Assembly (NCBI RefSeq): GCF_001422375.1
Contig: NZ_LMMU01000008.1
Coordinates: 76,268 to 140,267 of the forward strand
DNA: 64,000 nucleotides
Direction: 5' to 3'
Source: Methylobacterium sp. Leaf99
GTDB lineage: Bacteria; Pseudomonadota; Alphaproteobacteria; Rhizobiales; Beijerinckiaceae
Under the pieces are notes generated by a model, which saw only the letters and a list, made by a program, of their open reading frames with translations, did no database searches and had not been told where the DNA came from. The translations under genes and the position numbers were made by a program. How positions within the stretch are numbered: the stretch's first letter is position 1; each line of letters starts with the position of its first letter. Positions 4,254 through 53,911 of this stretch are shown here, piece after piece.

Positions 4254-5264
4254 ATGATTCCGCTCTCCATCCTCGACCTTGCGCCGGTGCCGCAAGGGGC
4301 GACTCCGGGCGACGCCCTGCGCAATGCCCTCGCGCTCGCCCGCCACACGGAAGAACTCGGCTACCGGCGCTACTGGGTGGCCGAGCACCACAACATGATC
4401 GGCATCGCCAGCGCGGCGACCGCGGTGGTGGTCGGCTATCTCGCGGCCGGCACGCGCACCATCCGGGTCGGCGCCGGCGGCATCATGCTGCCGAACCATT
4501 CGCCCCTGGTGATCGCCGAGCAGTTCGGCACCCTGGAGGCCCTGTATCCCGGCCGGATCGACCTCGGCCTCGGCCGCGCGCCCGGCACCGATCCGCGGAC
4601 CTCGCGGGCCCTGCGCCGGTCCCACGAGGCGGCCGACACCTTCCCGCAGGACGTCCGCGAGCTGCAGAGCCTGTTCGGCGATCTCCAGCCGGGGCAGGCG
4701 GTGCAGGCCGTACCCGGCACGGGGCTGAACGTGCCCCTGTGGGTTCTCGGATCGAGCCTGTTCGGGGCGCAGCTCGCCGCCGCCTTCGGCCTGCCCTATT
4801 CCTTCGCGTCGCATTTCGCGCCCGACGCCCTGCTGCCGGCGCTGGCGACCTACCGGGCGAACTTCGTCCCCTCCCCCCAGCTGGCGGCCCCGCACGCGAT
4901 GATCGGCGTCAACGTGGTGGCGGCCGAGACCGATGCGGCGGCGCGCCGGCTGTTCACCTCGGCCCAGCAGCAGTTCACCCACCTGCTGCGCGGGACGCGA
5001 GGCCTGCTGCAGCCACCCCTCGATGACATCGAGACCTACTGGTCGCCCGCTGAGAAGGCGCAGGCCTCCCGGATGCTGGCCCGCTCCCTCGTCGGGTCGC
5101 CCGAGACCATCGCCCGCGGGCTCGCCGACCTCGTGGCCGAGACCGGGGCGGACGAGCTCATGGTGGCGTCGGCGATCCACGATCCGGCGGCACGCCAACG
5201 CTCCTACGCGCTCCTGGCCGAGGTGCGGGACGGCCTGGAACACCGGTCCGCCCGCGTCGCCTGA
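4254..5264 (+). CDS. LLM class flavin-dependent oxidoreductase (MsnO8-like)
   Basis: Luciferase-like monooxygenase-fold protein of about 336 residues. It has the typical N-terminal strand [14 protein letters not shown], the AEHHNM motif, the [20 protein letters not shown] block and the [18 protein letters not shown] block that mark the flavin-binding bacterial luciferase family in its MsnO8-like branch. It probably uses reduced FMN on an unknown substrate. The ATG at 4254 has an AGGA at a suitable distance; an in-frame ATG at 4236 (MKDSHT) is an alternative. No partner flavin reductase lies alongside. Monocistronic, between a divergent hypothetical gene and asd. Confidence 0.85.
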
Positions 5265-17839: not shown

Positions 17840-20800
17840 TCAGCGGGTCCGTTTCAGGACCGCGTAGGGCAGACGCGCGAACAGGCGGTCGAGTTCGATC
17901 CGTCCATCCTTCGCCTCGGCGGTGTCCCCCGTGACGAGGTCGGTCCAGGCGCTATCGGCCTGCACCGGCAGGTGGGTCCCGGCGAAGGCCGCGCCCGACC
18001 ACACTCCGTCCCCGACGAGACCAGAGACGAGGCGCGGTACGGCGACCAGGAGGTCGCCTTCCCCGCTCGTCGCATCCGAACGTGTGAAGGCGATGACATG
18101 ATCGGCTTTTCCGCCGGCCGGAACGACGGCCTGATAGTCGGCTTCGGCGTAGAAGGCCGGCCGCTCGGTCCGGTCGGCCAGCAGGCGGGCCAGGGTCGCC
18201 TGTTTGACCCGGCCGTCGCTCCAATGCGCCAGGAGATCGGGGACCGCGCCGCCCTCCTCAAGGGATCGGGCGAGCGCCGGATAGTCCACCGGGCGGCGAT
18301 TGTCGGGATCGACGAACGAGAAATCCCAGAACTCCGTGCCCTGATAGGTGTCGGGCAGGCCCGGCAGGGTCGCCTTCAGCACCGTGCGGCCGAGACCCGC
18401 GATCATACCGAGATGGGCCAGGCGCTTGGCGAAGGGCCGCATCCGCGACAGGAACTCCGAGCCCGGGGCGATGAGCTTGGCGAAGAGCGCGTGGACGGCG
18501 CCCTCGTAGGATTCGTCGACGTTGACCCAGCTCGACCGGCGCTTCGATTCGCGCAGCGCCTTTTCGGAGTAGGCGTCGAGGCGGTGGCGGAAGTCCTCGA
18601 CGGCCGCGGGCTCGTCCCGGTCCAGCAGTTCGAGGGGCCACGCGCCCAGGATCGCCTGAAAGAACATCCACTGGTCGTTGGAATCCGGCACGGCCTCGCC
18701 GTCGATGGTGGTGAGGTGCGGGCCGGCAAGCGCTTGCCATGCGGTCCAGGCCTCGGCCCAGTCACCGGGCATCTCCGAGAGGGCGAGCAGGCGCGAGCGG
18801 GCATCCTCGCCGCGCTTGGTGTCGTGCGTCGCCGTGGCGATCATGGCGTTGGGCCAGTCGCGGGCGCGGGCCGCCTGGAGGGCGTGGAAGTGTGCGGCGT
18901 CGATGCCGTACTCGCCCGGATCGCCGCCGACTTCGTTCAGCGCCAGCAGTTCCGAGAACCGGTAGAACAGGGTGTCCTCCAGGCTTTTGGCCATCACCGG
19001 GCCGGTGAGCTGCTGGAAGCGGCGGCGGAAGCGCAGGATCACCGCCGGGTCGGGGCGACCCGGTCCGGTGACGTCGATGCGGCCCAGCATGGCGTCGGCG
19101 GCGAAGTCGTGCACCGAACGGTCCGGCAGGGCGCTCCAGCGCTTCGCCTTCTTCACCGCATTCTCGATGAGGCGGACATCCTCGTCCTCGACGTCGCTCT
19201 CGTCGATGTCCCCCGGCAGGTAGCTGCGGTAGGTGGGAAAGCGCGCGATGATCTCGATGAGCGCCCGGCGGATGGCGTTGACGGAGAAGTCGCGGGTGCG
19301 CCGGTCGGCATCGGCCACGGCCTTGAGGTCCGAGGTCATCACCTCGAGCTCGGAGGCGAAGCTGATCTCCAGGATTTCGGCCTTCGCCGCGCGAAGCTGA
19401 AACTTGTAGGGCTCGTCGAAATGCGTGCGCGCCTCGTAGAGGTCGCGGATCGCTGTCTGCTTGCCCTTGTCGACCAGGATGCCGTCGAGCTGGTTCAGCA
19501 CGTCGTAGCCGGTGGTGCCGGCGACGGGCCAAGGCCGCAGGCGCTCGCCGGGCTCGAGGATCTTCTCAACCACCACGTAGAAGCCGGGGCCGACGGCCGC
19601 TTGCAGCGCGCGGGCATAGCCCTGCGGATCGGCGAGACCGTCGATGTGGTCGATGCGAAGGCCGTCGATGCGGCCCTCGCGGATGTGGCGGAACACCGTC
19701 TCGTGCGAGCGCTGGAACACGTCGGACTTCTCGACGCGCAGGCCTGCCAGGCCGTTCACGTCGAAGAACCGGCGGTAGTTGATATCGCTCGCCGCCACCC
19801 GCCAATGGGCCAGCCGGTAGGATTGCTGCTCCAGCAGGCGGTGCAGGGGCCCGAAGCTGTCGGGATGTCCCTTGGCGCCATTCAGGAGTCGCAGGGTCCG
19901 TCCGATGGCCTCCGCGATGGCGGGCGAGGCGGCGACCGCCTCGACGAGGCGCTCCTTCAGGTCCTCGGCCTCGGCCGGGAAGGCCCGGCGACGCTCGTCA
20001 TTGGTCTCCTCGCCCATGAGGCGAAGGCGCTCGGAGATGCCGAGCACTTCCAGAGCTGCCGCATCCTCGATGTCGCCGAGCGCCGCGAGGGAGCGGTTGA
20101 GGATGGTCGGATATTGCTGCGGGCAGATCGGGAATTCGTGCTCGTAGTGCCAGACGCTGAAGGCGCCTTTCTGCGGATCGAACTTCAGCTCTAGCGTGCC
20201 CCTCTCCAGGGCCTCGCCGTAGCGGTCGCCGAGGAACGGCACCACGAGCTTGTTGTTGGCGCCGAGCCTGGACCAGTCGATATCGAAGGCGTCCGCGTGG
20301 GGCGACAGGCCGCCCCATTCGAGGACCGACAGCCACCACGGATTGTCGGCGCCGCCGACGCCCATGTGGTTGGGTACGATGTCGAGCAGCAGCTTCAGCC
20401 CGGCCGCGTGCAGGGTCTCGGAGAAACGCACGAAGCCTTCCTCGCCGCCGAGCTCCGGGTTGATGGTGGCGTGGTCGACGATGTCGTAGCCGTGGGTCGA
20501 GCCCGGTCGCGCCTTCTGGATCGGCGAGGCGTAGACGTGGCTGATGCCGAGCTTGGCTAGATACGGGACGATTTTTTCCGCGTCCGCGAAGGTGAAGTCC
20601 TTGTGGAACTGCAGCCGGTAGGTGGCACGCGGCGGCGGCGAAGCGAGGCGTGCAGCGCCCGAGCGCGGCCCGCGCTCCTCGGCCGCCAGGGAGGCGGCGA
20701 GCTTGGCGAGCGGCCCGCCGGGGGCCGCGATGGCCTCCAGAGTCCGGTCGAGCTTGCGCCGCCAGTTCGGGTAGCCCTCCGTCGAGCCCGGCACGTTGGC

Positions 20801-22747
20801 CTGGGACAGTTCGGAGACCACGTCCTCGTACTGCACCGCGGTCAGCATCGACGGCGCACGGGCGAGGTAGCGCGCGGCGGCTTCGAGAGGCGCGGCCTCA
20901 GGCGGATCGTAGCTCGGCAGCAACTGCTCGGCGGCCAACGCCTCGGTGAGGCGGGTGCGCTCGTCGACGCGCTCGCGCCGCTCCGTGTCGGCCCGCTCGG
21001 AATCGTAGAGGCCCAGCGCTTGACGGGTGTCGGTGTCGACCCCGCGCCACCAGCCGAGGAAGGTCGGCAGGTCGTGGGTGGTGATGGCCGTGAGGGCCTC
21101 GCGTGGATAGGCGGCCGGCGGCTTGAAGCGGGCGCCGTCCTCGCGCTCGAAGGCGAGGATGCGGTAGCTCAAGATACCCGCCTGCATCAGGGCGTCGGAG
21201 AAGCCCGCGGGCGCCGTGCCGAGATCCTCGGCGATGACGAGGCACTTGGCGCGGTGGCTCTCCAGGCGCAGCACGGCCAGCATGGGCTCGAACGGCATGG
21301 CGACGTAGGCGCCGGCCTGCGCCGTGGCGCCCAGCGGGATCAGGAACAGGCGGGCGAGCTGGAAAGCGTGGTCGATGCGGATGGCGCCCGCATGGCGCAT
21401 GTTCGCCTGGACCAGGGCGCGGAAGGCGGCGAGGCCGTCGCGCTCCATCTCCAGGGGGTGGAAGGCCGGCAGACCCCAGTCCTGGCCCTTGGGCGCGAGC
21501 AGGTCGGGCGGCGCGCCGATGGAGACGCCGTTGGCGAACCGCTCGGGGTGCGACCAGATCTCGGAGCCGCCGCGATCGGCGCCGACCGCAAGGTCGCGAT
21601 AGAGGCCGAGACGCATGCCGGTGCCCAGCGCGATCTCGGACGCGTCCTCCAGCTGCCGGTCGGCGAGGTACTGTAGCCAGACGTGGTAGGTCACCGTCGC
21701 CGCGTGCTCGGCGGCGAAGGCCCGCACGGCGTCGGTGCCGTTGCGCCGGTACTCTTCCGGCCAGTCGCCGAGCCAGAGGGCGCCCTGCCCCTGGAAATGT
21801 TCGGCCAGCGCCTCGAAGGTGCCGTGCGCCTCCAGATCCGCGCCGCCTGCGATGCGGAAGGCGGCAAAGCGCGCATCGGTACCGTCACGGGCGGCGGATT
21901 CCTGCCACAGGGCGCGGAGCACCGGCGAGAGCACGCCCCAGATCCCGGCGTGGTCGACAAGCTTGGCCTCGCGCAGGGCCTCGACCCGTGCGCCCATGGA
22001 GGCGAGGAGGTCCGCGGCCTTCGACCCGACGAAGCCCGGAAGGACACCCGGCTCGATGAACAGGGTCTCGAGGAACAGGCGCGAGGACGGCGAGTACGGG
22101 GAGATCTTGGTGCGATCGCTGGCGAACAGCGCGTGCACGGGGCTGAGGCCCAGGAACGAAGCGCCGCGCAGGCCGGCGTCGCGGGCGGCGCGGCCCGCAT
22201 CGGCGTAGGAGCCGATCCCGAGGTTGTCCGGCGAACGCAGGCCGTAGAGCTGGGCGGCGAGCCCCCAGTCGCGCGCACCCTCGTCGGCATAGGCACGCGG
22301 ACGCCAGCAGCGCTGGGGGGCTGCGATGACCCAGGATTCGGCGCGCTGATCGCCTAGCGTCGCCGTCAGGCGATGATAGCCGGGCGTCAGGGGCGGCAGT
22401 TCGAAGCCGGCTTGCGCCGAGGCGGGAACGGCGAGACGGCCCTCGCGGGTATGGCCGCGCTCATCGACGAGACGCCACGCCAGGGTCCCGGCCGCCGACA
22501 CCCTCAGGGGCACCCGCGCGGCGCGGCGCGCCTCGACGGGCAGCAGCGACGGGGTCAGTCCCTCGCGAACCTTCGCCACGAGGCTCAGACTCGCGGCAAC
22601 CTCAGCTTCGTCGCCGACGGGGAAGCCGAGGGCGGCGATCATGCCGCGCCGGATCTCCAGGGCAGTCTCCACGGCTTGGCCGAAGGCGTCGGTATAGCCG
22701 GGGGCGACGCCCAGAAGATCGGCGAGGCGTTCGAGGTCGCAGCTCAT
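17840..22747 (-). CDS. Bifunctional 4-alpha-glucanotransferase / malto-oligosyltrehalose synthase
   Basis: 1635-residue fusion. Residues 1 to about 700 are a GH77 amylomaltase (MalQ: LGIGSYADAG, the SPYSPSSRLF block, AIRIDHAFQLARLF, IAEDLGTAP). From about residue 705 the protein is TreY (TYRLQFHKDFTFADAEKIVP, ASPIQKARPGSTHGYDIVDH, IVPNHMGVGG, GLRIDHIDGLADP), which turns the reducing end of maltodextrin into a trehalosyl end. Start chosen at the ATG 22745-22747 (MSCDLERL), which overlaps the treZ stop as TGATG; about 96 more open codons upstream are antisense-like and unsupported. Fusing disproportionation to trehalosyl-end formation should channel short dextrins to TreZ. Confidence 0.93.
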   Translation of the reverse strand: MSCDLERLADLLGVAPGYTDAFGQAVETALEIRRGMIAALGFPVGDEAEVAASLSLVAKVREGLTPSLLPVEARRAARVPLRVSAAGTLAWRLVDERGHTREGRLAVPASAQAGFELPPLTPGYHRLTATLGDQRAESWVIAAPQRCWRPRAYADEGARDWGLAAQLYGLRSPDNLGIGSYADAGRAARDAGLRGASFLGLSPVHALFASDRTKISPYSPSSRLFLETLFIEPGVLPGFVGSKAADLLASMGARVEALREAKLVDHAGIWGVLSPVLRALWQESAARDGTDARFAAFRIAGGADLEAHGTFEALAEHFQGQGALWLGDWPEEYRRNGTDAVRAFAAEHAATVTYHVWLQYLADRQLEDASEIALGTGMRLGLYRDLAVGADRGGSEIWSHPERFANGVSIGAPPDLLAPKGQDWGLPAFHPLEMERDGLAAFRALVQANMRHAGAIRIDHAFQLARLFLIPLGATAQAGAYVAMPFEPMLAVLRLESHRAKCLVIAEDLGTAPAGFSDALMQAGILSYRILAFEREDGARFKPPAAYPREALTAITTHDLPTFLGWWRGVDTDTRQALGLYDSERADTERRERVDERTRLTEALAAEQLLPSYDPPEAAPLEAAARYLARAPSMLTAVQYEDVVSELSQANVPGSTEGYPNWRRKLDRTLEAIAAPGGPLAKLAASLAAEERGPRSGAARLASPPPRATYRLQFHKDFTFADAEKIVPYLAKLGISHVYASPIQKARPGSTHGYDIVDHATINPELGGEEGFVRFSETLHAAGLKLLLDIVPNHMGVGGADNPWWLSVLEWGGLSPHADAFDIDWSRLGANNKLVVPFLGDRYGEALERGTLELKFDPQKGAFSVWHYEHEFPICPQQYPTILNRSLAALGDIEDAAALEVLGISERLRLMGEETNDERRRAFPAEAEDLKERLVEAVAASPAIAEAIGRTLRLLNGAKGHPDSFGPLHRLLEQQSYRLAHWRVAASDINYRRFFDVNGLAGLRVEKSDVFQRSHETVFRHIREGRIDGLRIDHIDGLADPQGYARALQAAVGPGFYVVVEKILEPGERLRPWPVAGTTGYDVLNQLDGILVDKGKQTAIRDLYEARTHFDEPYKFQLRAAKAEILEISFASELEVMTSDLKAVADADRRTRDFSVNAIRRALIEIIARFPTYRSYLPGDIDESDVEDEDVRLIENAVKKAKRWSALPDRSVHDFAADAMLGRIDVTGPGRPDPAVILRFRRRFQQLTGPVMAKSLEDTLFYRFSELLALNEVGGDPGEYGIDAAHFHALQAARARDWPNAMIATATHDTKRGEDARSRLLALSEMPGDWAEAWTAWQALAGPHLTTIDGEAVPDSNDQWMFFQAILGAWPLELLDRDEPAAVEDFRHRLDAYSEKALRESKRRSSWVNVDESYEGAVHALFAKLIAPGSEFLSRMRPFAKRLAHLGMIAGLGRTVLKATLPGLPDTYQGTEFWDFSFVDPDNRRPVDYPALARSLEEGGAVPDLLAHWSDGRVKQATLARLLADRTERPAFYAEADYQAVVPAGGKADHVIAFTRSDATSGEGDLLVAVPRLVSGLVGDGVWSGAAFAGTHLPVQADSAWTDLVTGDTAEAKDGRIELDRLFARLPYAVLKRTR

Positions 22748-24558
22748 CAGTTCACACCCGTCAGGAAGATGCCCGTCCAGGACGGGAGTTCGATGGTCTC
22801 GCCGGTCACGACGTCGGCCCCGTTGCACCAAACGATCTGGCCTCCGCCGCGCGGCGTCTGCAGGGGCGCATCGCCGAAATTGGCGACGAAGCGCAGCCAC
22901 CCACCCTCGTAGCGCCAGGTGCAGTCCACGGCGTCGGCACGTGGCAGGGTAGCCTTCGCCCCCCGATACGCCGTCTTCGTCAGGGGTACGACGGTCTGAT
23001 GCCGGATCTGCAGGAGGTTGCGGGTGTCGGCCCACACGCCGCGATGGGGGGCGCGTTCAACTTCCGCCCAGTCGATCTGCGAATCCGTGAAAGTCTTCGC
23101 CTCCGTCGGATCGGGAATCATCGACGTGTCGTCGGCGAACGCCGCGAAGCTCTTGAACTCGCGCCGGCGGCCTTCGCGCACAGCCTTGTTCAGCTCCGCG
23201 TCGGGCGCGAAATCGACGAAGAACAGGAACGGTGCGGTGGCCGACCATTCCTCGCCCATCCACAGCATGGGGATCTGCGGGCTGAGCAGGAGGCCGGCGC
23301 GGGCAAGGGCGAGCTTGGCCGGATCGGCGAGCGCGGTCAGGCGTTCGCCGAGCGCCCGGTTGCCGACCTGATCGTGGTTCTGCAGGAAGGTGACGAAGGC
23401 CGAGGGCGGCAGGTGGCCCGAGGGCTCGCCGCGCGGATGGTTGTCGAGGGTCGGGAACGGCTCGCCCTGATAGGCGAAGCCTTCCGCCAAGCACCGGGCC
23501 AGATGGGCCACCGGCTTGTCCGAGAAGCTCTCGTAGTACCCGGCCTCTTCGCCGGTCAGCAGCACGTGCCAGCAATGATGCAGGTCGTCGGCCCATTGCG
23601 CCGTGTGCTGGACGGGCTGACCGTCGTCCCTGCGTTCCAGCCACTTCGCCTCGTTGGCCTCGTTCTCGAGGACGAGGTGGATGTGGCGGCCGGGCAGGCG
23701 GGCGCGGATCGTCTCGGCGAGCTCACCGATGAAGTGCTTTTCGGAATCGTCAAGGATGGCGTGGACGGCGTCGAAGCGCAGGCCATCGAAGTGGTATTCC
23801 TCCAACCAGTACAGGGCGTTCTCGATGAAGAAGTCCCGCACGGTACGGCCGCTGGTCTCGCCGTCGAAGTTGATGCCGGCGCCCCACGGCGTCTGGTGGC
23901 GCTCGGTGAAGAACGTCTTGGCGTAAGCGTGCAGATAGTTTCCGGCGGGGCCGAAGTGATTGTAGACGGCGTCGAGGAACACCATCAGGCCGAGGGAATG
24001 CGCCTTGTCGACGAAGCGCTTGAGGTCGTCGGGGCGGCCGTAGGCGCTGTCCGGCGCGTAGGGTAGTACCCCGTCGTAGCCCCAGTTGCGGGTGCCCTTG
24101 AAGTCGGCGAGCGGCAGCAGCTCGATGGCGGTGACGCCGAGGTCGCGCAGTTCCTCGAGCTTGCCTTCGAGGGCGGCGTAGGTGCCCTCCGGCGTCGCGG
24201 TGCCGACATGCAATTCGTAGAGGATCGTTTCCTCCCACGGGCGGCCGGTCCAGGCGGAATCGTTCCAGTCGAAGCTGCGCGGATCGATCACCTCGCTCAG
24301 GCCCGACACGTCGTCGGGCTGGAAACGCGAGGCGGGGTCGGGCACCACGAGGTCGCCGTCGATCCGGTAGCCGTAGCGCGCCCCCGCCTCGACGCCCGGC
24401 ACGGTCACACGCCGCCAGCCCTCGCCGGCCTCGGCGATCTCATGATCGGTCCCATCGACCACGAGGGTGACGGACTTCGCGGTGGGAGCCCACAGGGCGA
24501 ACCGCACGCCGTCTTTTCCCGCCTCGCCGCCGAAGGCCATCACATGGGCTCGCCGCAT
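22747..24558 (-). CDS. treZ: Malto-oligosyltrehalose trehalohydrolase
   Basis: Releases trehalose from the trehalosyl-dextrins made by TreY. 603 residues, normal length. An N-terminal CBM48-like domain (GVRFALWAPTAKSVTLVVDG) precedes a GH13 barrel with ELHVGTATPEGTY, LDAVYNHFGPAGNYL, nucleophile Asp near residue 261 in GLRFDAVHAI, acid Glu near 297 in LVLENEANE, and LQNHDQVGNRA. Its stop overlaps the start of malQ-treY by one base, so the two are translationally coupled. Confidence 0.96.
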   Translation of the reverse strand: MRRAHVMAFGGEAGKDGVRFALWAPTAKSVTLVVDGTDHEIAEAGEGWRRVTVPGVEAGARYGYRIDGDLVVPDPASRFQPDDVSGLSEVIDPRSFDWNDSAWTGRPWEETILYELHVGTATPEGTYAALEGKLEELRDLGVTAIELLPLADFKGTRNWGYDGVLPYAPDSAYGRPDDLKRFVDKAHSLGLMVFLDAVYNHFGPAGNYLHAYAKTFFTERHQTPWGAGINFDGETSGRTVRDFFIENALYWLEEYHFDGLRFDAVHAILDDSEKHFIGELAETIRARLPGRHIHLVLENEANEAKWLERRDDGQPVQHTAQWADDLHHCWHVLLTGEEAGYYESFSDKPVAHLARCLAEGFAYQGEPFPTLDNHPRGEPSGHLPPSAFVTFLQNHDQVGNRALGERLTALADPAKLALARAGLLLSPQIPMLWMGEEWSATAPFLFFVDFAPDAELNKAVREGRRREFKSFAAFADDTSMIPDPTEAKTFTDSQIDWAEVERAPHRGVWADTRNLLQIRHQTVVPLTKTAYRGAKATLPRADAVDCTWRYEGGWLRFVANFGDAPLQTPRGGGQIVWCNGADVVTGETIELPSWTGIFLTGVN

Positions 24559-24741
24559 CGCAGTCCGTCTTTCGTCATTACCTGAGGGGCGATCGGCGAG
24601 CGAAGCCGGCCGACCCTTCAGAAGGCTGTCGGCCGCGCTCTTGTTCCATCGTTTCGAGGTAAGGCGTCCCGCCGCGTCGGCAACCGCCCAGCTCGATAGA
24701 TTTGTGCGATGCGGGATCTCCGGCCGGTCGCGACGCCGGTG

Positions 24742-26880
24742 CTACGATCGTCCGTAGGTCGCCGGCCGGGTCCGCAGGACGTAGAGCGCGCGGGCGTCGA
24801 GGCGCAGGCGGGCGCCGGCCGGGAACAGGGTCTGGCCCTCCGGAACCGTGCCCGTCGATCGCGTCGTGTCGAACACCAGGCTCCACGGCCCTCCGATCAC
24901 GGGCGCGAAGGTGAAGTCGCACGGGTCTTCGGCGGCGTTGACGAGAATGAGGAGTCGGTCGGCGTTGGGCAGATCGTTGCCGATCTGCATGCCGAAGGCC
25001 TGGCGGGTTTCCTCGGCCCAGGCGTTCCCGTCCATCTCCGCCCCGCAGGGCGACAGCCAGTGCACGTCGCGCAACGGGCCGTCCTCGACGGCGCCGCCAT
25101 CGAGGAAATCGCGTCGGCGCAGGGCCGGCTGTTCCCGGCGCAGGCGGGTCAGGTTGGCGACGAAGCTGCCGAGCGCCGGATCGGGATCGGTCTCCCAGTC
25201 GACCCAGTTCGTGGCGTTGTCCTGATTGTAGGCGTTGTTGTTGCCGCCCTGGCTGCGCGAGCGCTCGTCGCCCATCAGCAGCATCGGCACGCCCTGGGCC
25301 AGGACGATCGTGGTCAGGATGTTCCGCTTCTGGCGGGCGCGCATCCCGAGAATCGCGGGATCGTCGCTCGGCCCCTCGACGCCGTAATTGCGCGTGAGGT
25401 TGTGACCATGGCCGTCGCGGTTGTCCTCGCCGTTGGCGAGGTTGTGCTTGTCCTCGTAGGCGACGACGTCGGCCAGGGTGAACCCGTCGTGAGAGGCGGC
25501 GTAGTTGATGCTGGCCAGTGGCGTGCGGCCGGAGGCGGCGAAGATCTCGCGCGAGCCGGAGAGCCCCTGCGTGACCTTCGACAGCACGCCCCGGTCGCCG
25601 CGCCAGAACCCGCGCACGCTGTCGCGGAACTGATCGTTCCACTCGCTCCACCCACGCGGATAGGCGCCGAGCTGATAACCGCCCTGCCCGATGTCCCACG
25701 GCTCGGCGATCATCTTGACCCGCGACAGGACGGGGTCCTGCGCCACGGCCTGGAAGAAAGCGGCCTTCGCCGAGAAGTCGTGGGGGACGCGGCCGAGACT
25801 GGTGGCGAGGTCGAAGCGGAAGCCGGCGACCCCGTAGGCCGTCACCCAGTGGCGCAGGGAATCGAGGGTGAGCTGCATCACCCTCGGGTGGTCGAGGTCG
25901 AGGGTGTTGCCGCAGCCGGTGCAATCGAGCTCCCGGCGCGGATCATCCGGTTCGAGCTTGTAGTAGCTCGCATTGTCGATGCCCCGGAACGACAGGGTCG
26001 GGCCGGAATGATCGGCCTCGGCCGTGTGGTTGTAGACGACATCCAGGAACACTTCGATCTCGGCCGCCGCCAATTCGCGGATCGCCGCCTTGAGGCCGCC
26101 GATCCCGGCCGGGCCCCGGTAGCGCGGTTCGAGGGCAAAGTAGTTCAGCGGCGAGTAGCCCCAGAAGTTGACCAGCCCCTTGTCCCCGAGGAAGCGGTCG
26201 TCGGCAAAGGCCTGGATCGGCAGGAGCTGGAGGGCGGTGACGCCGAGCTTCAGCAGATGTTCGATGATGGCCGGATGGGCCAGGGCCGCGTAGGTGCCGC
26301 GCGCGGCCTCCGGGACGTCGGGGTGGAGCTGGGTCAGCGCCTTGACGTGCGCCTCGTAGATCACCGTCTGCGACAGGGGACGGTGCACGGGACTGACCGC
26401 GAGATCGGGCACCTCCGGCGCGGTGACCACGCCGCGCGGCATGTAGGCCGCGCTGTCGCGCCGGTCGATCTGATCCTCCCGCAGGATTCCGCGCCGGTGA
26501 CCGTAGAGGGCGTCGTGCCAGCGGATGCGGCCCTGGATCTCGCGGGCATAGGGGTCGAGGACGAGCTTGGCCGGGTTGAAACGGTGACCATGGGCCGGGT
26601 CCCACCGGCCGTGGACGCGGTAGCCGTAGAGCTGACCGGGAAACACGCCGCGCAGGTGGCCGTGCCAGACATCGTCCGTGCGGCAGGGTAAGCGGATGCG
26701 GCGGGTCTCGTGGCGCTCGCCCGGCTCGAACAGGCAGAGATCCACGGCGGTGGCGTTCTGGGAGAACAGGGCGAAGTTGACGCCCCGGCCGTCGAAATGG
26801 GCCCCGAGCGGCGCGGGTACGCCGTCGTCGAGGCCGATCATGCTGTCAGTCACAGAGACGTCCGCGATAGGGAGAGCCAC
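24742..26880 (-). CDS. glgX: Glycogen debranching enzyme
   Basis: Isoamylase-type GH13 enzyme that cuts alpha-1,6 linkages and supplies linear dextrins to TreY-TreZ. 712 residues. CBM48 (GVNFALFSQNATAVDLCLF), GFRFDLATSLGR with the nucleophile near residue 357, and MIAEPWDIGQGGYQLG with the acid Glu near 393 are all present, as is SHDGFTLADVVAY. The ATG at 26880 was taken; an in-frame Met (MIGLDDG) 13 codons later is a possible alternative. It follows otsA after 64 bases and precedes treZ after about 180 bases. Confidence 0.95.
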   Translation of the reverse strand: MALPIADVSVTDSMIGLDDGVPAPLGAHFDGRGVNFALFSQNATAVDLCLFEPGERHETRRIRLPCRTDDVWHGHLRGVFPGQLYGYRVHGRWDPAHGHRFNPAKLVLDPYAREIQGRIRWHDALYGHRRGILREDQIDRRDSAAYMPRGVVTAPEVPDLAVSPVHRPLSQTVIYEAHVKALTQLHPDVPEAARGTYAALAHPAIIEHLLKLGVTALQLLPIQAFADDRFLGDKGLVNFWGYSPLNYFALEPRYRGPAGIGGLKAAIRELAAAEIEVFLDVVYNHTAEADHSGPTLSFRGIDNASYYKLEPDDPRRELDCTGCGNTLDLDHPRVMQLTLDSLRHWVTAYGVAGFRFDLATSLGRVPHDFSAKAAFFQAVAQDPVLSRVKMIAEPWDIGQGGYQLGAYPRGWSEWNDQFRDSVRGFWRGDRGVLSKVTQGLSGSREIFAASGRTPLASINYAASHDGFTLADVVAYEDKHNLANGEDNRDGHGHNLTRNYGVEGPSDDPAILGMRARQKRNILTTIVLAQGVPMLLMGDERSRSQGGNNNAYNQDNATNWVDWETDPDPALGSFVANLTRLRREQPALRRRDFLDGGAVEDGPLRDVHWLSPCGAEMDGNAWAEETRQAFGMQIGNDLPNADRLLILVNAAEDPCDFTFAPVIGGPWSLVFDTTRSTGTVPEGQTLFPAGARLRLDARALYVLRTRPATYGRS

Positions 26881-26944
26881 GCCGGCGACGGCCGCCCGGC
26901 ATGGAGTCCTGCAAGGCTTATTCCGCCGCGGCCGCCGCGGAAAC

Positions 26945-28366
26945 CTATTCCGCAGCCGCCGCTGCTCGCGGCGGCTCGCGCTCGACGGTGCGGAAGTTCT
27001 CCAGCTCCGTCATGAAGTTGCGCGCCCACCAGTCGACGTCTTCGCGCGTCATGCGCTCGAGCATCGGCTTCCAGCGTTCCAGGCGTTCGCCCCGCGGCAT
27101 GTAGAGCGCCGTGCGGATGGCCTCGGCCACTTCGAAGCGGTCGTAGGGATTGACCAGGAGCGCCTCCGGCAACTGCCGCGCCGCGCCGGCGAACTTCGAC
27201 AGGACGAGGACGCCGGGGTCCTCGTCGGACTGGGCGACGACGTATTCCTTTGCGACAAGGTTCATGCCGTCGCGCATGGGCGTCACGAGGCCGACGCGGG
27301 CGGCACGGTAGAGCCCAGCTAGGACGGGCCGGGGATAGGCCTTGGTGACGTACTGGATCGGGGTCCAGTTCGGCTCGCCCAAGCTGCCGTTGATCTCGCC
27401 CACGGTCTCGTTCACCTCGCGGCTGAGCTCCTCGTACTCGGGAACCTCCGTCCGGGATTTCGGCGTGATCTGGATGTAGACGACGTTGCCGCGCTGGTCC
27501 GGGTTCGAGGCGAAGAAACGCTCCACCGCCTCCATGCGCTCGGGCACGCCCTTGGAATAGTCGAGGCGATCGACGCCGATGAGGAGCTTGCGGGTGCGCA
27601 GGCCCGCCATGGTCTCGCGCACGGTCCGGTTGGCACCGGCATTCTCCGCCGCTTCCTTGAAGCCCGCCACGTCGATGCCGATGGGGAAGCTGCGGATGCG
27701 GGTACGGCGCCCGTCCACCATCAGGGAGCCGCCGCCCAGCGGAATGGCGCGCAGCTCGTCGATGAGATTGCGGGTGAGGTTGTGAACGTCCGGATCGGTC
27801 TGGAGGCCGATGAGGTCGTAGTCAGCGATGCCGCGCAGGAGGTCGTTGCTCGCCGGCAGGGTGTTGAACACGTCCGCCGCCGGCCACGGAATGTGGTGGA
27901 AATAGCCGATGGGGTTGGCGATGCCGAGGCCGCGCAGCTCGGAGGCCAGCGGCAGCAGGTGATAATCGTGCACCCAGATGATGTCGTCGGGCTGGATCAG
28001 GTCGGCGAGGGCCCGGGCGAAGATCCGGTTGACGCGCTGATAGCCGGCGTAATCCGAGCGCGAGAAGGCGCCGAGCCCGAGCCGGTAATGCATGATCGGC
28101 CACAGGGCACGGTTGGCGAAGCCGCTGTAATATTCCCGGTGGTCCTGGGGCGAGAGATCGACGACGGCGTACTGGACCCGGCCCCGATCGATGAGGGTCG
28201 GCTCCGTGGAGGGATTCTCCACGACGTTGCCGCTCCAGCCGAACCACAACCCCTCATAGGCCGTGAAGGCCTCCTTGACCGCGACGGCGAGACCGCCGGC
28301 CGCAACGGCTTTGCCACCATCCTCGGGGATTGCGACGCGGTTCGATACGATGACGAGACGTGCCAC
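26945..28366 (-). CDS. otsA: Alpha,alpha-trehalose-phosphate synthase (UDP-forming)
   Basis: GT20 enzyme joining UDP-glucose and glucose-6-phosphate to trehalose-6-phosphate. 473 residues, full length. It opens with [12 protein letters not shown] and carries [48 protein letters not shown] and [11 protein letters not shown]. The C-terminus is an Ala-rich tail. No otsB is adjacent, so the phosphatase must be encoded elsewhere or be a different enzyme. First gene of the minus-strand locus. A second AAAAE-stop-like segment directly after its stop looks like a local duplication of the 3' end. Confidence 0.97.
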
Positions 28367-28765
28367 GTAAGCCGGCTCCGGTCCTCAGGGCGCGGCGCGG
28401 GAATCGCGCGCGCTCAGACTGATACAGTGGGTGAACGCGCGGAAGCCGAGCGCGATCCGTTGGTTGCAGCCAAGCGCGTTAAGACTATCCCGGTCAAGGG
28501 GCGCCCGTGCCCGCCTCACGGCAAAATACGCACGCCCAGGGTCCGCCACACCCGTGATCCGGACACCCGCCGAAGCAAAGAGCGACAACGTTCATCGTCC
28601 CAACCGGTCGTCACGGCGAGGCTCCTCGGCCAAGCTTTTGTCTCCTAGGGGCCGTGACCTGAACAGAGACTGACGCGCACCGTTTCGCCCGTGCGGAACC
28701 CTGTCTCCACGGGCGCTGTTGAACTGCGGCAACAGCGCAACCGATCAGCGCCGAGGAGTATCACC
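28367..28765. other. Divergent control region between otsA and the stress operon
   Basis: About 400 bases without a gene. It must contain the otsA promoter on the minus strand, for which no consensus was found, and an EcfG-like promoter on the plus strand at 28695-28720. A GAGGAG ribosome binding site at 28753-28758 decides the GTG start at 28766. Confidence 0.6.
28695..28720 (+). promoter_or_regulatory. EcfG-like general stress promoter
   Basis: GGAAC at 28695-28699, a 17-base spacer, then TGTT at 28717-28720. The consensus is GGAAC-N16/17-CGTT, so one base of the -10 element differs. It lies about 46 bases upstream of the GTG start of a four-gene operon of stress-type proteins. Confidence 0.6.
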
Positions 28766-29308
28766 GTGAACGTGAATCAACCCACAGGAGCGCCGGGGGC
28801 GGAGGCTGCGGCGAATCGCGAGACGGCCGACTGGAAAGCCCTGCGCGGCGACGTCGAGGGCATCGCCGACGAGGCGGTGGAGCGCGGCCGGGGCTTCGTA
28901 TCCGCGGCCCGGGGGCACGCCGAGGAGTATGTCGACCGCCGCAAGGGCGACGCCGCCCAGTCGGTCAACGACCTCGCGCGCACGGTTCGGGACTCGAGCA
29001 AGACCTTCGAGGACCGGCCCAACATCCGTGCCTTCTTCGACAGCGCGGCGGAAGGCCTCGAGCACCTCGGGACGCAGATCGAGAACAAGAGCTTCTCCGA
29101 GTTCTACGAGGATGCCGAGGCCCTCGCCCGCCGGGCCCCTGTCGCCGTGGCTGTCGCCACCTTCGTGACCGGGTTCGTCGTGGCCCGTTTCATCAAGTCG
29201 TCGAGCGTTTCGGCCGTGCGTGACTTCGACGCCCGTGAGGTTCCGGTCCGGGGCGGTTCCCTGCGCGACGTGCCGGCACCCGGTCTCCGCCGCGATCACG
29301 GCGTCTGA
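28766..29308 (+). CDS. Stress-type membrane-anchored amphipathic protein
   Basis: About 180 residues from a GTG start behind GAGGAG. Residues 20-120 are charged and helical, with heptad-like Ala and hydrophobic spacing typical of DUF883- or LEA-like proteins. One hydrophobic segment follows near residues 127-148 (APVAVAVATFVTGFVVARF), then a short polar tail. No enzyme motif. It heads an operon with a holin-fold protein 11 bases downstream. Position behind an EcfG-like promoter and next to the trehalose genes suggests a role in envelope stress or desiccation; this is inference. Confidence 0.75.
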   Translation: MNVNQPTGAPGAEAAANRETADWKALRGDVEGIADEAVERGRGFVSAARGHAEEYVDRRKGDAAQSVNDLARTVRDSSKTFEDRPNIRAFFDSAAEGLEHLGTQIENKSFSEFYEDAEALARRAPVAVAVATFVTGFVVARFIKSSSVSAVRDFDAREVPVRGGSLRDVPAPGLRRDHGV

Positions 29309-29319
29309 GGCCGGCGCCC

Positions 29320-29715
29320 ATGTCGAACGGACCCAATCCCAGCATCCAGGGCCTCATCGGCGATGCCCTGCGGGAGACCAACGAACTCGCCCGCAAGGAG
29401 ATCGCCCTCTTCCGCAACGAGATGACGAGCAACGTCCGCTCGCTCTTCGTCGGTCTCGGGCTCCTCGTGGGCGCCGCCGTGTTCGGCGTCGTCGCCCTGT
29501 TCGTCCTCGTGGACGCCTTGGTGAAATGGCTCGCCACGGTGGTCCACTCGGAAGCGCTCGCCGCTCTCATCGTCGGCGGCGTGCTCCTCGTCGTCGCGGT
29601 GATTCTGGCGCTGGTCGGCCGCAACGCCATGTCGCTGTCGACCCTCGCTCCCGTGCGGACTTCGCGTCAGGTTCGCCAGGATGCCCGCGCACTGTCTGAA
29701 AGGGTCTCCGGATGA
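29320..29715 (+). CDS. Phage holin family (DUF1469-like) membrane protein
   Basis: 131 residues: an amphipathic N-terminus (IGDALRETNELARKEIALFRNEM), two hydrophobic helices near 40-66 and 80-100 separated by a short loop, and a basic tail. This layout matches the putative Actinobacteriophage holin III/DUF1469 family, which in proteobacteria is chromosomal and not a sign of prophage. Its stop overlaps the next start by ATGA (29712-29715). Confidence 0.75.
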   Translation: MSNGPNPSIQGLIGDALRETNELARKEIALFRNEMTSNVRSLFVGLGLLVGAAVFGVVALFVLVDALVKWLATVVHSEALAALIVGGVLLVVAVILALVGRNAMSLSTLAPVRTSRQVRQDARALSERVSG

Positions 29716-30107
29716 GCGGATCGTTGAACGAACTCGAGAAGGACATCGAGGCGAGCCGCGCCCGCCTCGACCAGACCATCGACCAGATCCAGGAACGGCT
29801 CTCGGTGTCGAGCATCGTCGACGAGATGCTCGGCAACGCCCGCCGGACACCGCTGATCGGAGTCTACGATGGGGCGTTGGCCGCCGTCCGCCGCAACCCG
29901 GTGCCGGTGATGATCATCGCCGCCGGGGTCGGCTGGCTCCTGCACCGGATGTCGTCCGACGCGGCCGCCGCCGTCGCCACGGAGCGCCGGGTTCGCCAGG
30001 CGAAGGACAGCCTGCCGGTGGTGCAGACGGGAGCCGACCGCGTCTACGACCCGGATCTGCCGACGCGCCATCCCGTCAAGGATCTCGGCCAAGAGACTCA
30101 ACTCTGA
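29712..30107 (+). CDS. DUF3618 domain-containing protein
   Basis: 131 residues. The N-terminal stretch ELEKDIEASRARLDQTIDQI followed by QERLS is the DUF3618 signature, and one hydrophobic segment (NPVPVMIIAAGVGWLLHRM, about residues 62-80) follows. DUF3618 genes are commonly found beside DUF1469 holin-like genes, as here. Translationally coupled to the preceding gene. Function unknown; membrane-associated. Confidence 0.8.
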   Translation: MSGSLNELEKDIEASRARLDQTIDQIQERLSVSSIVDEMLGNARRTPLIGVYDGALAAVRRNPVPVMIIAAGVGWLLHRMSSDAAAAVATERRVRQAKDSLPVVQTGADRVYDPDLPTRHPVKDLGQETQL

Positions 30108-30181
30108 CCCGGCTCTGATTCAGTCCGAGTCCGATCCCACTTCGGCCCGTGCCAAGGGCCTATTCTCTGCAGGAGCCACCC

Positions 30182-30859
30182 ATGTCCCACTCCCCGAAGC
30201 CCGGTGACGAATCCCGTTCCCTGCCCGACGACATCGCCCTCGCGGCGGGCATGCCGCGCGGCCACCAGGACGATCGCACCCTCGACGCGCGTGTCGGATC
30301 GACGGCCGATGACGTGCGGTCCGGCGCGACCAACCTGCGCGACATGGCCCTCGAGACCGCCGACGACCTGACGAACCGCGCCGCCGGCATCGCCGGAGAC
30401 GTCCGGGACCGGGTGTCCGAGACGGCCCAGACCGTGCGTGACCGCTTGGCCGGTACGGCCCAGGATCTGCGCGAGCGGGCCTACGATGTTCGCGACACCG
30501 GCCGGCGCCGGATCGAGGATCTCGGCGAGCGCGGGTCGGAGCGTCTTCGCGATGGCCGCTCGGCCGTCGAGGATTTCGTTACCGAGAACCCCCTCCTCGT
30601 CGGCGTCGTCGGCCTCGCCGCTGGCCTTCTCATCGGCGCCCTCCTGCCCCGCACCCGGCAGGAAGACGAGACCGTGGGTCCGTGGGCCGACGAGGTTCGC
30701 GACCAGGGGCTCCGCTACGCCCGCGACGTGACCCATCGCGGACGCGAGTTCGTCGCGAGCGCCCTCGACCCGGAAAACCTCCAGGCCGCCGCCCAGCGCG
30801 CGACGGCGCCCCAGGGCGGTACCGGCTACGCCGAGACGCCGGGTACCCGTCCGCACTGA
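30182..30859 (+). CDS. LEA/apolipoprotein-like amphipathic protein with one membrane segment
   Basis: 225 residues from an ATG behind AGGAG. Residues about 40-125 are a run of 11-residue-type amphipathic repeats rich in Ala, Arg, Asp and Val (DRVSETAQTVRDRLAGTAQD is typical), resembling group 3 LEA proteins. A hydrophobic stretch follows near 140-160 (PLLVGVVGLAAGLLIGALL), and the polar tail ends with Gly/Thr-rich sequence. It lies 74 bases after the DUF3618 gene and is followed by a terminator. LEA-like proteins protect membranes during drying, consistent with adjacent trehalose synthesis; the role here is inferred. Confidence 0.7.
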   Translation: MSHSPKPGDESRSLPDDIALAAGMPRGHQDDRTLDARVGSTADDVRSGATNLRDMALETADDLTNRAAGIAGDVRDRVSETAQTVRDRLAGTAQDLRERAYDVRDTGRRRIEDLGERGSERLRDGRSAVEDFVTENPLLVGVVGLAAGLLIGALLPRTRQEDETVGPWADEVRDQGLRYARDVTHRGREFVASALDPENLQAAAQRATAPQGGTGYAETPGTRPH

Positions 30860-30887
30860 CGCGACGGCGCGATCTGGTCGATGGTGA

Positions 30888-30922
30888 GGGGCGGTGTCCG
30901 AAAGGGCGCCGCCCCTTCTTTC
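30888..30922 (+). terminator. Rho-independent terminator of the stress operon
   Basis: GGGGCGGTG and CGCCGCCCC pair in a 9-bp stem (one wobble) around a 10-base loop, followed by TTCTTTC. It lies 29 bases after the stop of the LEA-like gene. Confidence 0.7.
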
Positions 30923-52726: not shown

Positions 52727-53401
52727 TCACCGGGCCAGGAGCGATTCGCCGTAGCGGTCGCACAGATCCTGCGGGTCAGACGCGATGGCGACGCACCCGG
52801 CCGTGCGCAGTTCGGTTTCCGAGACCCCGCCGCACAGGACACCGATGGTCGGCAGGCCAGCCTTGGCCGCGGCCTGGACATCGTAGGCGGTGTCGCCAAC
52901 CACCATGCTGTCCCAGGCGTTCAGGGGGGCGAGCTTGGCAAGCGCCGACGCGAAGATGTCGGGAAACGGCTTCGAGCGCTCGGCATCGTCCGATGTCGTA
53001 GTCACCGAAACCAGGTCGGCGACGCCCAGAAGCTCCTTGTAATGCGCGACCTCGTCGGCCTTGCCGGACGAGGCCAGCGCGATGGTCTGGCCCTCGGTCC
53101 TGATCCGCTCGAACAGGGGGCGGACGCCCGGGAACGGCCGGACCTTGTCGAGGAAGTTCCGCTTGAACAGGTCGGAGCGGTAGGCCTCCATGGCCTTGCC
53201 CTCCCGCTTCACCCGGTCCCGGTCGACAAAGACGGGAAGCAACTGGTCCCCGCCCTTGCCGATCTGGCTGCGGACCTTCGCGTGCTCCGTCTCGATGCCG
53301 AAATGCGCGAAAGCCTCGACCCAGGCCTGGGCATGGAGATCGACGCTGTCGAGGAGCGTCCCATCGATATCGAAGATCACCGCCCTGACCGCTGACGCCA
53401 T
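52727..53401 (-). CDS. HAD family hydrolase, beta-phosphoglucomutase-like
   Basis: 224 residues. HAD motif I FDIDGTLLD with nucleophile Asp11, motif II in ALASSGKADE, motif III Lys in SKPFPDIF, and motif IV VVGDTAYDVQAAAKAG are all intact; a small alpha-helical cap lies between motifs I and II. Subfamily IA hydrolases act on sugar phosphates or related esters; substrate unknown. A consensus EcfG promoter 75-99 bases upstream suggests stress induction. Trehalose-6-phosphate phosphatase activity cannot be excluded but is not indicated, since OtsB has a different cap. Confidence 0.9.
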   Translation of the reverse strand: MASAVRAVIFDIDGTLLDSVDLHAQAWVEAFAHFGIETEHAKVRSQIGKGGDQLLPVFVDRDRVKREGKAMEAYRSDLFKRNFLDKVRPFPGVRPLFERIRTEGQTIALASSGKADEVAHYKELLGVADLVSVTTTSDDAERSKPFPDIFASALAKLAPLNAWDSMVVGDTAYDVQAAAKAGLPTIGVLCGGVSETELRTAGCVAIASDPQDLCDRYGESLLAR

Positions 53402-53475: not shown

Positions 53476-53500
53476 AACGGTCGGCGTGCTCCGTCGTTCC
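53476..53500 (-). promoter_or_regulatory. Consensus EcfG promoter of the HAD hydrolase gene
   Basis: On the minus strand GGAAC (plus 53496-53500), a 16-base spacer and CGTT (plus 53476-53479) match the EcfG consensus exactly. The HAD start at 53401 lies 75 bases from the -10 element, giving a leader of about 68 bases. Confidence 0.75.
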
Positions 53501-53525: not shown

Positions 53526-53810
53526 TTAGCGCGGGAAGATGTGCAGGCCGTCGTCGGGCAGAAGGTTGCGGGCGGGGCCGCCGGTCTGCTGGCCGCGGCC
53601 CTGCTGGTAGTAGGGCAACTCGGGGCGGCGGTCGTTGTCGCTGCCGGAATCGTACTCGTAGGGGCGGCTCCACGGCGCGCGGCCGCCGACACCCGCCACG
53701 GTCTCGACCTCGCCCGGGATGGGGGCGGTGCCGTAGCCGTAGGGCGTGGCCTGCCCGGTCACGGGGACGGCGATGGCGAGGGCGACGAGGGTGGGAAGAA
53801 GGGTCTTCAT
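53526..53810 (-). CDS. Small secreted protein, EcfG-type promoter
   Basis: 94 residues from ATG 53808-53810 with GAGG upstream. Signal peptide MKTLLPTLVALAIAVPVTG, then a polar Tyr/Pro/Gly/Asp-rich mature segment ending in LLPDDGLHIFPR, with no cysteines. No family recognised. A consensus EcfG promoter begins 76 bases upstream, so it is a likely member of the general stress regulon. It lies upstream of the HAD gene but each has its own EcfG motif. Confidence 0.75.
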   Translation of the reverse strand: MKTLLPTLVALAIAVPVTGQATPYGYGTAPIPGEVETVAGVGGRAPWSRPYEYDSGSDNDRRPELPYYQQGRGQQTGGPARNLLPDDGLHIFPR

Positions 53811-53885: not shown

Positions 53886-53911
53886 AACGTCACGCTTGAT
53901 CGGCCTGTTCC
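53886..53911 (-). promoter_or_regulatory. Consensus EcfG promoter of the small secreted protein gene
   Basis: On the minus strand GGAAC (plus 53907-53911), a 17-base spacer and CGTT (plus 53886-53889) match the EcfG consensus exactly. A second, weaker GGAAC-N16-CGTG occurs closer in (plus 53854-53878), so the gene may have two overlapping options. Confidence 0.75.

Follow-up and report, generated by a model that had tools for sequence, protein, structure and literature searches.

In the yqjCDEK set of E. coli, yqjD, yqjE and yqjK are adjacent genes, the last two of which overlap. A sigma-S promoter lies ahead of yqjD (PMC10746276; literature statements here and below follow excerpts of the papers cited). 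In Pseudomonas aeruginosa, the operon PA3040-PA3042, which encodes proteins like YqjD and YqjE together with a third one, is controlled by AlgU; it is induced by envelope stress and, strongly, in stationary phase (PMC11302039). In Actinoplanes, a DUF3618 protein adjoins a Holin-X superfamily III protein in the gene pairs ACSP50_3381-3382 and 4921-4922, and these pairs rise on expression of the alternative sigma factor sigma-H-As (PMC11205660). ElaB of E. coli, a C-tail-anchored stress protein, is reported to maintain membrane integrity in oxidative stress (PMC6389858). The subject of the present analysis is a four-gene operon, g1 to g4, in a 64,000-nucleotide stretch of DNA (the window) from the 4.65-Mb genome of Methylobacterium sp. 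Leaf99 (contig NZ_LMMU01000008.1, positions 76,268 to 140,267). The operon resembles stress operons of E. coli and Pseudomonas that are themselves little understood, and it is very probably under the control of the general stress sigma factor EcfG. The resemblance to yqjDEK and PA3040-3042, and a joined form of g3 and g4 seen in other genomes, are additions to an earlier account of the window made from the letters alone (the sequence-only reading).

The EcfG-type promoter predicted for the operon lies at 28695-28720 on the + strand. It consists of a -35 box GGAAC (28695-28699), a spacer of 17 nucleotides and a -10 box TGTT (28717-28720), and the start of g1 is 45 nt downstream; both the motif and the four open reading frames behind it are as the sequence-only reading described them. 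Taken alone, this single site is weak evidence, the count in the window being near that of chance. The pattern GGAAC-N16/17-[CGT]GTT occurs four times in the window against a mean of 1.48 in shuffled sequence (four or more in 9 of 100 shuffles), and the whole genome has 89 GGAAC-N16/17-[GT]GTT sites against 39 of the reversed pattern. A -10 pattern restricted to CGTT would not cover the TGTT at 28717-28720.

The motif at g1 is nevertheless far beyond chance, because it is conserved throughout the genus. The g1 loci of 60 other members (58 plus two more) were examined together with the window; these 61 loci are related, hence not independent. Exactly one GGAAC-N16/17-[GT]GTT site is present between g1 and its divergent neighbour otsA in each of the 61, with GGTT as the -10 box in 35, TGTT in 26 and CGTT in none. 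The spacers have diverged, with 27 distinct sequences among 36 of N16 and 21 among 25 of N17. Since they have done so although the loci are related, the two boxes are the conserved part. The reversed motif was found once in the same 61 stretches and the complement not at all, while 200 rounds of shuffling gave a mean of 0.40 and a maximum of 3 per 61. When 29 other permutations of GGAAC were scored, CGGAA reached 37 and the remainder 0 to 2. The high score of CGGAA could be attributed to the C that precedes GGAAC in 58 of the 61 loci; 34 of its 37 sites start one base ahead of the GGAAC site. No motif was found in any of the 60 g3-g4 gaps of the genus relatives. The otsA-facing strand carries the motif in 2 of 61 stretches, or in 3 when spacers of 15 to 19 are allowed, and a divergent promoter common to otsA and the operon is thus unsupported.

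The order g1-g2-g3-g4 with divergent otsA is kept in 60/60 relatives, two of the stretches stopping within g4 at a contig end. g1 was detected in all 59 genus genomes searched, the present one included, and its best named matches are from Methylobacterium sp. J-090, sp. Leaf112 and M. gossipiicola. In 28 of the 59 genomes, g1 is matched more than once. Two genus members have a second g1-g2-g3 operon (L271 on G201:C29 and L272 on G033:C7), each with a GGAAC motif upstream, the -10 box being CGTT in one and GGTT in the other.

The genome also encodes PhyR (NF006623, 365.2 bits, cut-off 240) and, divergent from phyR, has a gene like nepR whose match (E 7e-9) stays below the cut-off; the span between the two has GGAAC-N16-CGTT sites on both strands. 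Against PRK12546, a model of extracytoplasmic function (ECF) sigma factors, six genes reach E 7e-32 or better although they stay below its cut-off, and from these matches we infer six candidate ecfG genes. M. extorquens AM1 has six ecfG genes, and the number of candidates here agrees with this. Because the motif is conserved and the genome has phyR together with nepR-like and candidate ecfG genes, the EcfG control proposed in the sequence-only reading is strongly supported, although it stays a prediction. Many EcfG-regulated genes are without known function (PMC6599016). A text search within the available parts of PMC4814048, PMC6599016 and PMC7083833, their supplementary regulon tables lying outside its scope, found no such operon. 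Likewise, a literature search that did not cover supplementary regulon tables returned no report naming the operon in an alphaproteobacterium or under EcfG.

Other sites of this type were also noted. At the phyR/nepR locus (L270, C1:76000-84000), six GGAAC-N16/17-CGTT sites fall within about 2.3 kb (C1:78487-80726). In the window, a site with CGTT, the full published form, at 53886-53911 on the - strand precedes by 75 nt a small gene (ATG at 53810, stop at 53526, - strand), the start of which resembles a signal peptide. A further GGAAC-N16/17-CGTT site at 53476-53500 (- strand) lies 74 nt before an open reading frame at 53401 that appears, by eye, to be HAD hydrolase-like. The genes behind these two sites are possible further EcfG targets.

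The first three proteins of the operon are short and closely spaced. g1 (28766-29308, + strand; GTG start at 28766 with GAGGAG upstream) is a 180-residue helical protein with a hydrophobic anchor. It matches no Pfam family above cut-off; like g4, it matches Apolipoprotein below the cut-off. The AlphaFold model of g1 has helices at residues 12-81, 85-107 and 110-123 and a hydrophobic helix at 125-146, the predicted anchor, and a PDB fold search with this model gave nothing under E 0.001. g2 (29320-29715, + strand), of 131 residues, is a membrane protein of PF07332 (Phage_holin_3_6, the YqjE family; 90.5 bits, cut-off 28.4), and E. coli YqjE is above the cut-off of the same family (75.8 bits). 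That the operon is found genus-wide and that YqjE belongs to this family speak against a prophage holin. The start of g3 (29712-30107, + strand) overlaps the stop of g2 by 4 nt (ATGA), as it does in 58 of 60 genus relatives. g3, also of 131 residues, is a DUF3618 protein (PF12277, 37.8 bits, cut-off 24.9) with the hydrophobic segment NPVPVMIIAAGVGWLLHRM, and 34/34 aligned orthologues match the family at E 0.1. The family assignments that had been made for g2 and g3 from the letters therefore stand, both proteins scoring above cut-off.

Profile comparisons indicate distant similarity within the operon: g1 and g3 match at E 3e-6 over 84 columns, and weak matches are seen between g1 and g4 (E 0.002) and between g3 and g4 (E 0.014). 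Identification of g1 as a YqjD homologue (E 0.12) or of g3 as a YqjK homologue (E 0.23) is unsupported, as are the pairings of g1 with YqjK and of g2 with YqjD or YqjK. PF13997 (YqjK) gave a weak match in 2 of 34 g3 orthologues, the best at E 0.008.

The fourth protein, g4 (30182-30859, + strand; 225 residues), passes from amphipathic 11-residue repeats through a conserved Gly-zipper anchor, NPLLVGVVGLAAGLLIGALLPRT, to a C-terminal helix that is conserved as well. The repeats, which the sequence-only reading had pointed out, are real: the lag-11 identity of the window protein (0.258) was reached by none of 2000 shuffles. Among the orthologues (59 of 61, two being without a placing anchor), lag 11 exceeds all others in the range 3 to 18 with a z of 29, and hydrophobicity is strongest at 11/3 of six periods tested. 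An 11-residue repeat with an 11/3 period is the geometry of apolipoprotein and group-3 late embryogenesis abundant (LEA) helices. PF01442 (Apolipoprotein) is matched below its cut-off by 33 of 34 g4 orthologues; g4 matches YtxH and DUF883 below their cut-offs as well. It contains a conserved hydrophobic segment, NPLLVGVVGxAAG, and its Gly-zipper anchor profile aligns with that of YqjD over 29 columns (E 5e-7, probability 92.5). The anchor is not at the extreme C-terminus, unlike that of DUF883 and YqjD-ElaB proteins, since the protein continues beyond it for about 70 residues, which include a conserved helix.

Outside the genus the operon was followed in two samples. The first comprised 32 further loci around DUF3618 matches: 23 non-genus loci of the family, drawn from 37 non-genus family genomes with a match (those left out being mostly weaker matches), 7 loci spread over six further families in the class, and the 2 second copies in the genus. 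A g1 match lies ahead of g2 and g3 in 31 of the 32. In 22 of these 31 loci, or 20 of 29 once the genus copies are taken out, the motif stands no more than 300 bp ahead of the start chosen for g1; the reversed motif was found in 0/31 over the same span. The second sample was a g1 profile search of 199 genomes of the order, 25 of which, four of them from the genus, gave a match. Of 25 loci examined apart from the main copies in the genus, 24 have g2 downstream and 10 have the motif (the reversed motif, 0); when one genus copy already counted is removed, the motif is found in 9 of 24 new loci. PF12277 was detected in 7 of 190 genomes of the class, the present one included. Thus, the operon is patchy in the class, and the motif before it is common, not universal.

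In 10 of the 32 further loci (L258, L259, L261-L266, L268 and L269) the g3 and g4 matches lie in one open frame, and because they are joined in this way, g3 and g4 probably act together. Seven joined translations run from a DUF3618-like part through a hydrophobic segment, a linker and a Gly-zipper-like segment to a C-terminal stretch. The repeat lies between the two hydrophobic segments in the joined form, so it and the DUF3618 start would be on opposite sides of the membrane if both segments span it.

The operon is closed by an intrinsic terminator at about 30886-30922 (+ strand), with a 14-bp hairpin, a GAAA loop and a short T-rich tail. A pattern scan missed this hairpin and folding revealed it, at -44.3 kcal/mol over a 74-nt stretch that 1 of 200 shuffles folds as well; the terminator of the sequence-only reading is thus real as a hairpin. 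No sigma-70-like promoter was found by pattern scan in the region 26-33 kb. The divergent neighbour is otsA (trehalose-6-phosphate synthase; 26945-28366, - strand), as had been stated, with 414.9 bits to PF00982 and 561.3 bits to TIGR02400, just below the cut-off of 564.85. Reading away from the operon, otsA is followed on the - strand by glgX (24742-26880), treZ (22747-24558) and a malQ-treY fusion that ends at 17840 and the start of which is not fixed; these three genes are given as context. Genes of two trehalose routes thus stand side by side in one direction over 17840-28366.

A membrane role is plausible for the operon. In the mechanism that we propose, PhyR would take NepR off EcfG under stress, and RNA polymerase with EcfG would initiate a few nucleotides past the TGTT, so that the four proteins are made together. 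g2 would lie in the inner membrane, to which g1, g3 and g4 would be anchored. In g4, the amphipathic helices of 11/3 period would lie on the lipid surface in the style of apolipoproteins or group-3 LEA proteins, as would the long helix of g1, and together they could keep the inner membrane intact during growth stop. EcfG control and this lining role, taken together, seem slightly better than an even prospect.

Several observations weigh against this proposal. For M. extorquens the consensus in print reads GAAC-N16,17-C/GGTT (PMC4814048), and the -10 box here is TGTT; an EcfG promoter table of S. melonis does include a GGAAC-N17-TGTT entry (PMC6599016). PRK12546 also matches in 8 of 14 control genomes. 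Outside the family the motif is often absent, being missing in 15 of the 24 new g1-found loci. In the DUF3618 loci, where some of the g1 starts are uncertain, 2 of 20 sites lie over 200 bp away from the start, as do 3 of 9 in the g1-found loci. On the protein side, g2 and YqjE match weakly by hhalign (E 0.002), and the hhalign E-values refer to one comparison each of shallow profiles (Neff 1.6-2.8). For g1 and g4 AlphaFold predicts long helices, with low confidence (mean pLDDT 69.8 and 65.5). In g4, acidic residues precede the anchor and basic residues follow it, charges that would place the repeat helix outside; a signal peptide was not seen in g4. The roles of the proteins are putative, and YqjD, the best-studied relative, binds ribosomes.

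This last point leads to the main rival, in which the anchored helical proteins would hold idle ribosomes at the inner membrane under stress and the operon would dampen translation. In both 70S and 100S ribosomes YqjD associates with the 30S subunit, and RpoS regulates yqjD as well as elaB and ygaM (PMC10502375). The gene order here is like yqjD-yqjE-yqjK, the g4 anchor matches that of YqjD, and the g3 profile matches YqjD weakly (E 4e-4). The DUF883 evidence points the other way: window g1, which does not match YqjD by profile either, lacks any match to DUF883 at E 1, and window g4 stays below both cut-offs (PF05957, 13.2 against 25.4; PF19029, 14.1 against 27). The DUF883 N-terminal region is matched at E 0.1 by 4 of 34 g1 and 12 of 34 g4 orthologues (best E among the matches listed, 2.7e-5). 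The joined form, if both segments span, would put the repeat opposite the DUF3618 start. We regard ribosome tethering as unlikely. A growth-arrest module, in which a holin-like g2 lowers membrane energy and slows growth while the helical proteins limit or place it, seems a little less likely still. The family of g2 carries the holin label, YqjE overproduction cuts growth and raises persistence (PMC4738310), and overproduction of YqjD likewise arrests growth (PMC10746276). However, overproduced PA3040 and PA3041 did not inhibit growth (PMC11302039), and holin is here a family name only, the pore activity being putative.

The sequence-only reading had taken the operon and otsA together as a module that protects the membrane in drying or osmotic stress. 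In a third rival, a protectant of this kind, g4 would be a membrane-anchored LEA protein that cooperates with trehalose from the divergent genes, and we hold this to be about as improbable as ribosome tethering. The 11-residue periodicity of g4 speaks for it, as does LEA_4 (PF02987), which is matched by 2 of 34 g4 orthologues; the better of these, at 34.8 bits, falls short of the cut-off of 51.1, and at E 1 the model does not match the window protein. Group-3 LEA proteins are soluble, without a membrane segment. The hydrophobic anchor of g4 departs from this form, and the description of g4 as LEA-like is kept for its repeat alone. The association with trehalose genes is physical and genus-wide, divergent otsA being present in the window and in 60/60 relatives. 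The motif, however, faces the operon and is missing from the otsA-facing strand in 59 of 61 loci, and no otsA match was found around the 32 further loci (stretches of mostly 4 kb on each side). It is very improbable that the motif arose by chance and that the operon is constitutive or otherwise regulated. Such a site is expected 1.5 times in the window, yet its conservation in 61/61 loci with diverged spacers speaks against this reading.

The preferred reading, an EcfG-controlled lining of the inner membrane, would give DUF3618 a first working assignment, in which gene order and anchor link it to YqjE and YqjD. As one deletable operon, the locus offers a test case for membrane-anchored repeat helices in protection during drying and starvation. 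More broadly, though this is less likely than not, a YqjE-family protein with anchored amphipathic-helix partners could be a widely shared stress module, separately placed under the stress sigma factor of each lineage (EcfG, sigma-S, AlgU and an actinobacterial sigma factor). Its alphaproteobacterial form would be an LEA-like coat of the inner membrane in which DUF3618 and the repeat protein make one unit. If this is true of several lineages with different stress sigma factors, the unexplained phenotypes of yqjDEK and PA3040 would become comparable.

Among the known systems, E. coli yqjDEK is close in arrangement. Its close gene set is like g1-g2-g3, YqjE and g2 are both above the PF07332 cut-off, and the Gly-zipper anchor of YqjD matches that of g4; an order of the yqjDEK type, with an anchored helical protein followed closely by one of PF07332 and then by a short helical one, is kept in 60/60 genus relatives. 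The differences are that g1 and g3 are not matched to YqjD and YqjK by profile, that DUF3618 replaces YqjK, and that a fourth gene with 11-residue repeats and an EcfG-type promoter are present. PA3040-PA3042, compared by published description only, differs in that PA3040 has DUF883 and PA3042 no recognised domain. The Actinoplanes pairs are actinobacterial, and they rose, directly or indirectly, when expression of the sigma factor was forced. ElaB is a single protein, and its NCBIfam model reaches no better than E 0.03 with g4. With group-3 LEA and apolipoprotein helices g4 shares the 11-residue repeat and the 11/3 hydrophobic period; it differs from them in its anchor and conserved C-terminal helix and does not reach their Pfam cut-offs. 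By these likenesses the operon seems to be the alphaproteobacterial counterpart of the yqjDEK and PA3040-3042 stress operons, with DUF3618 in the third place.

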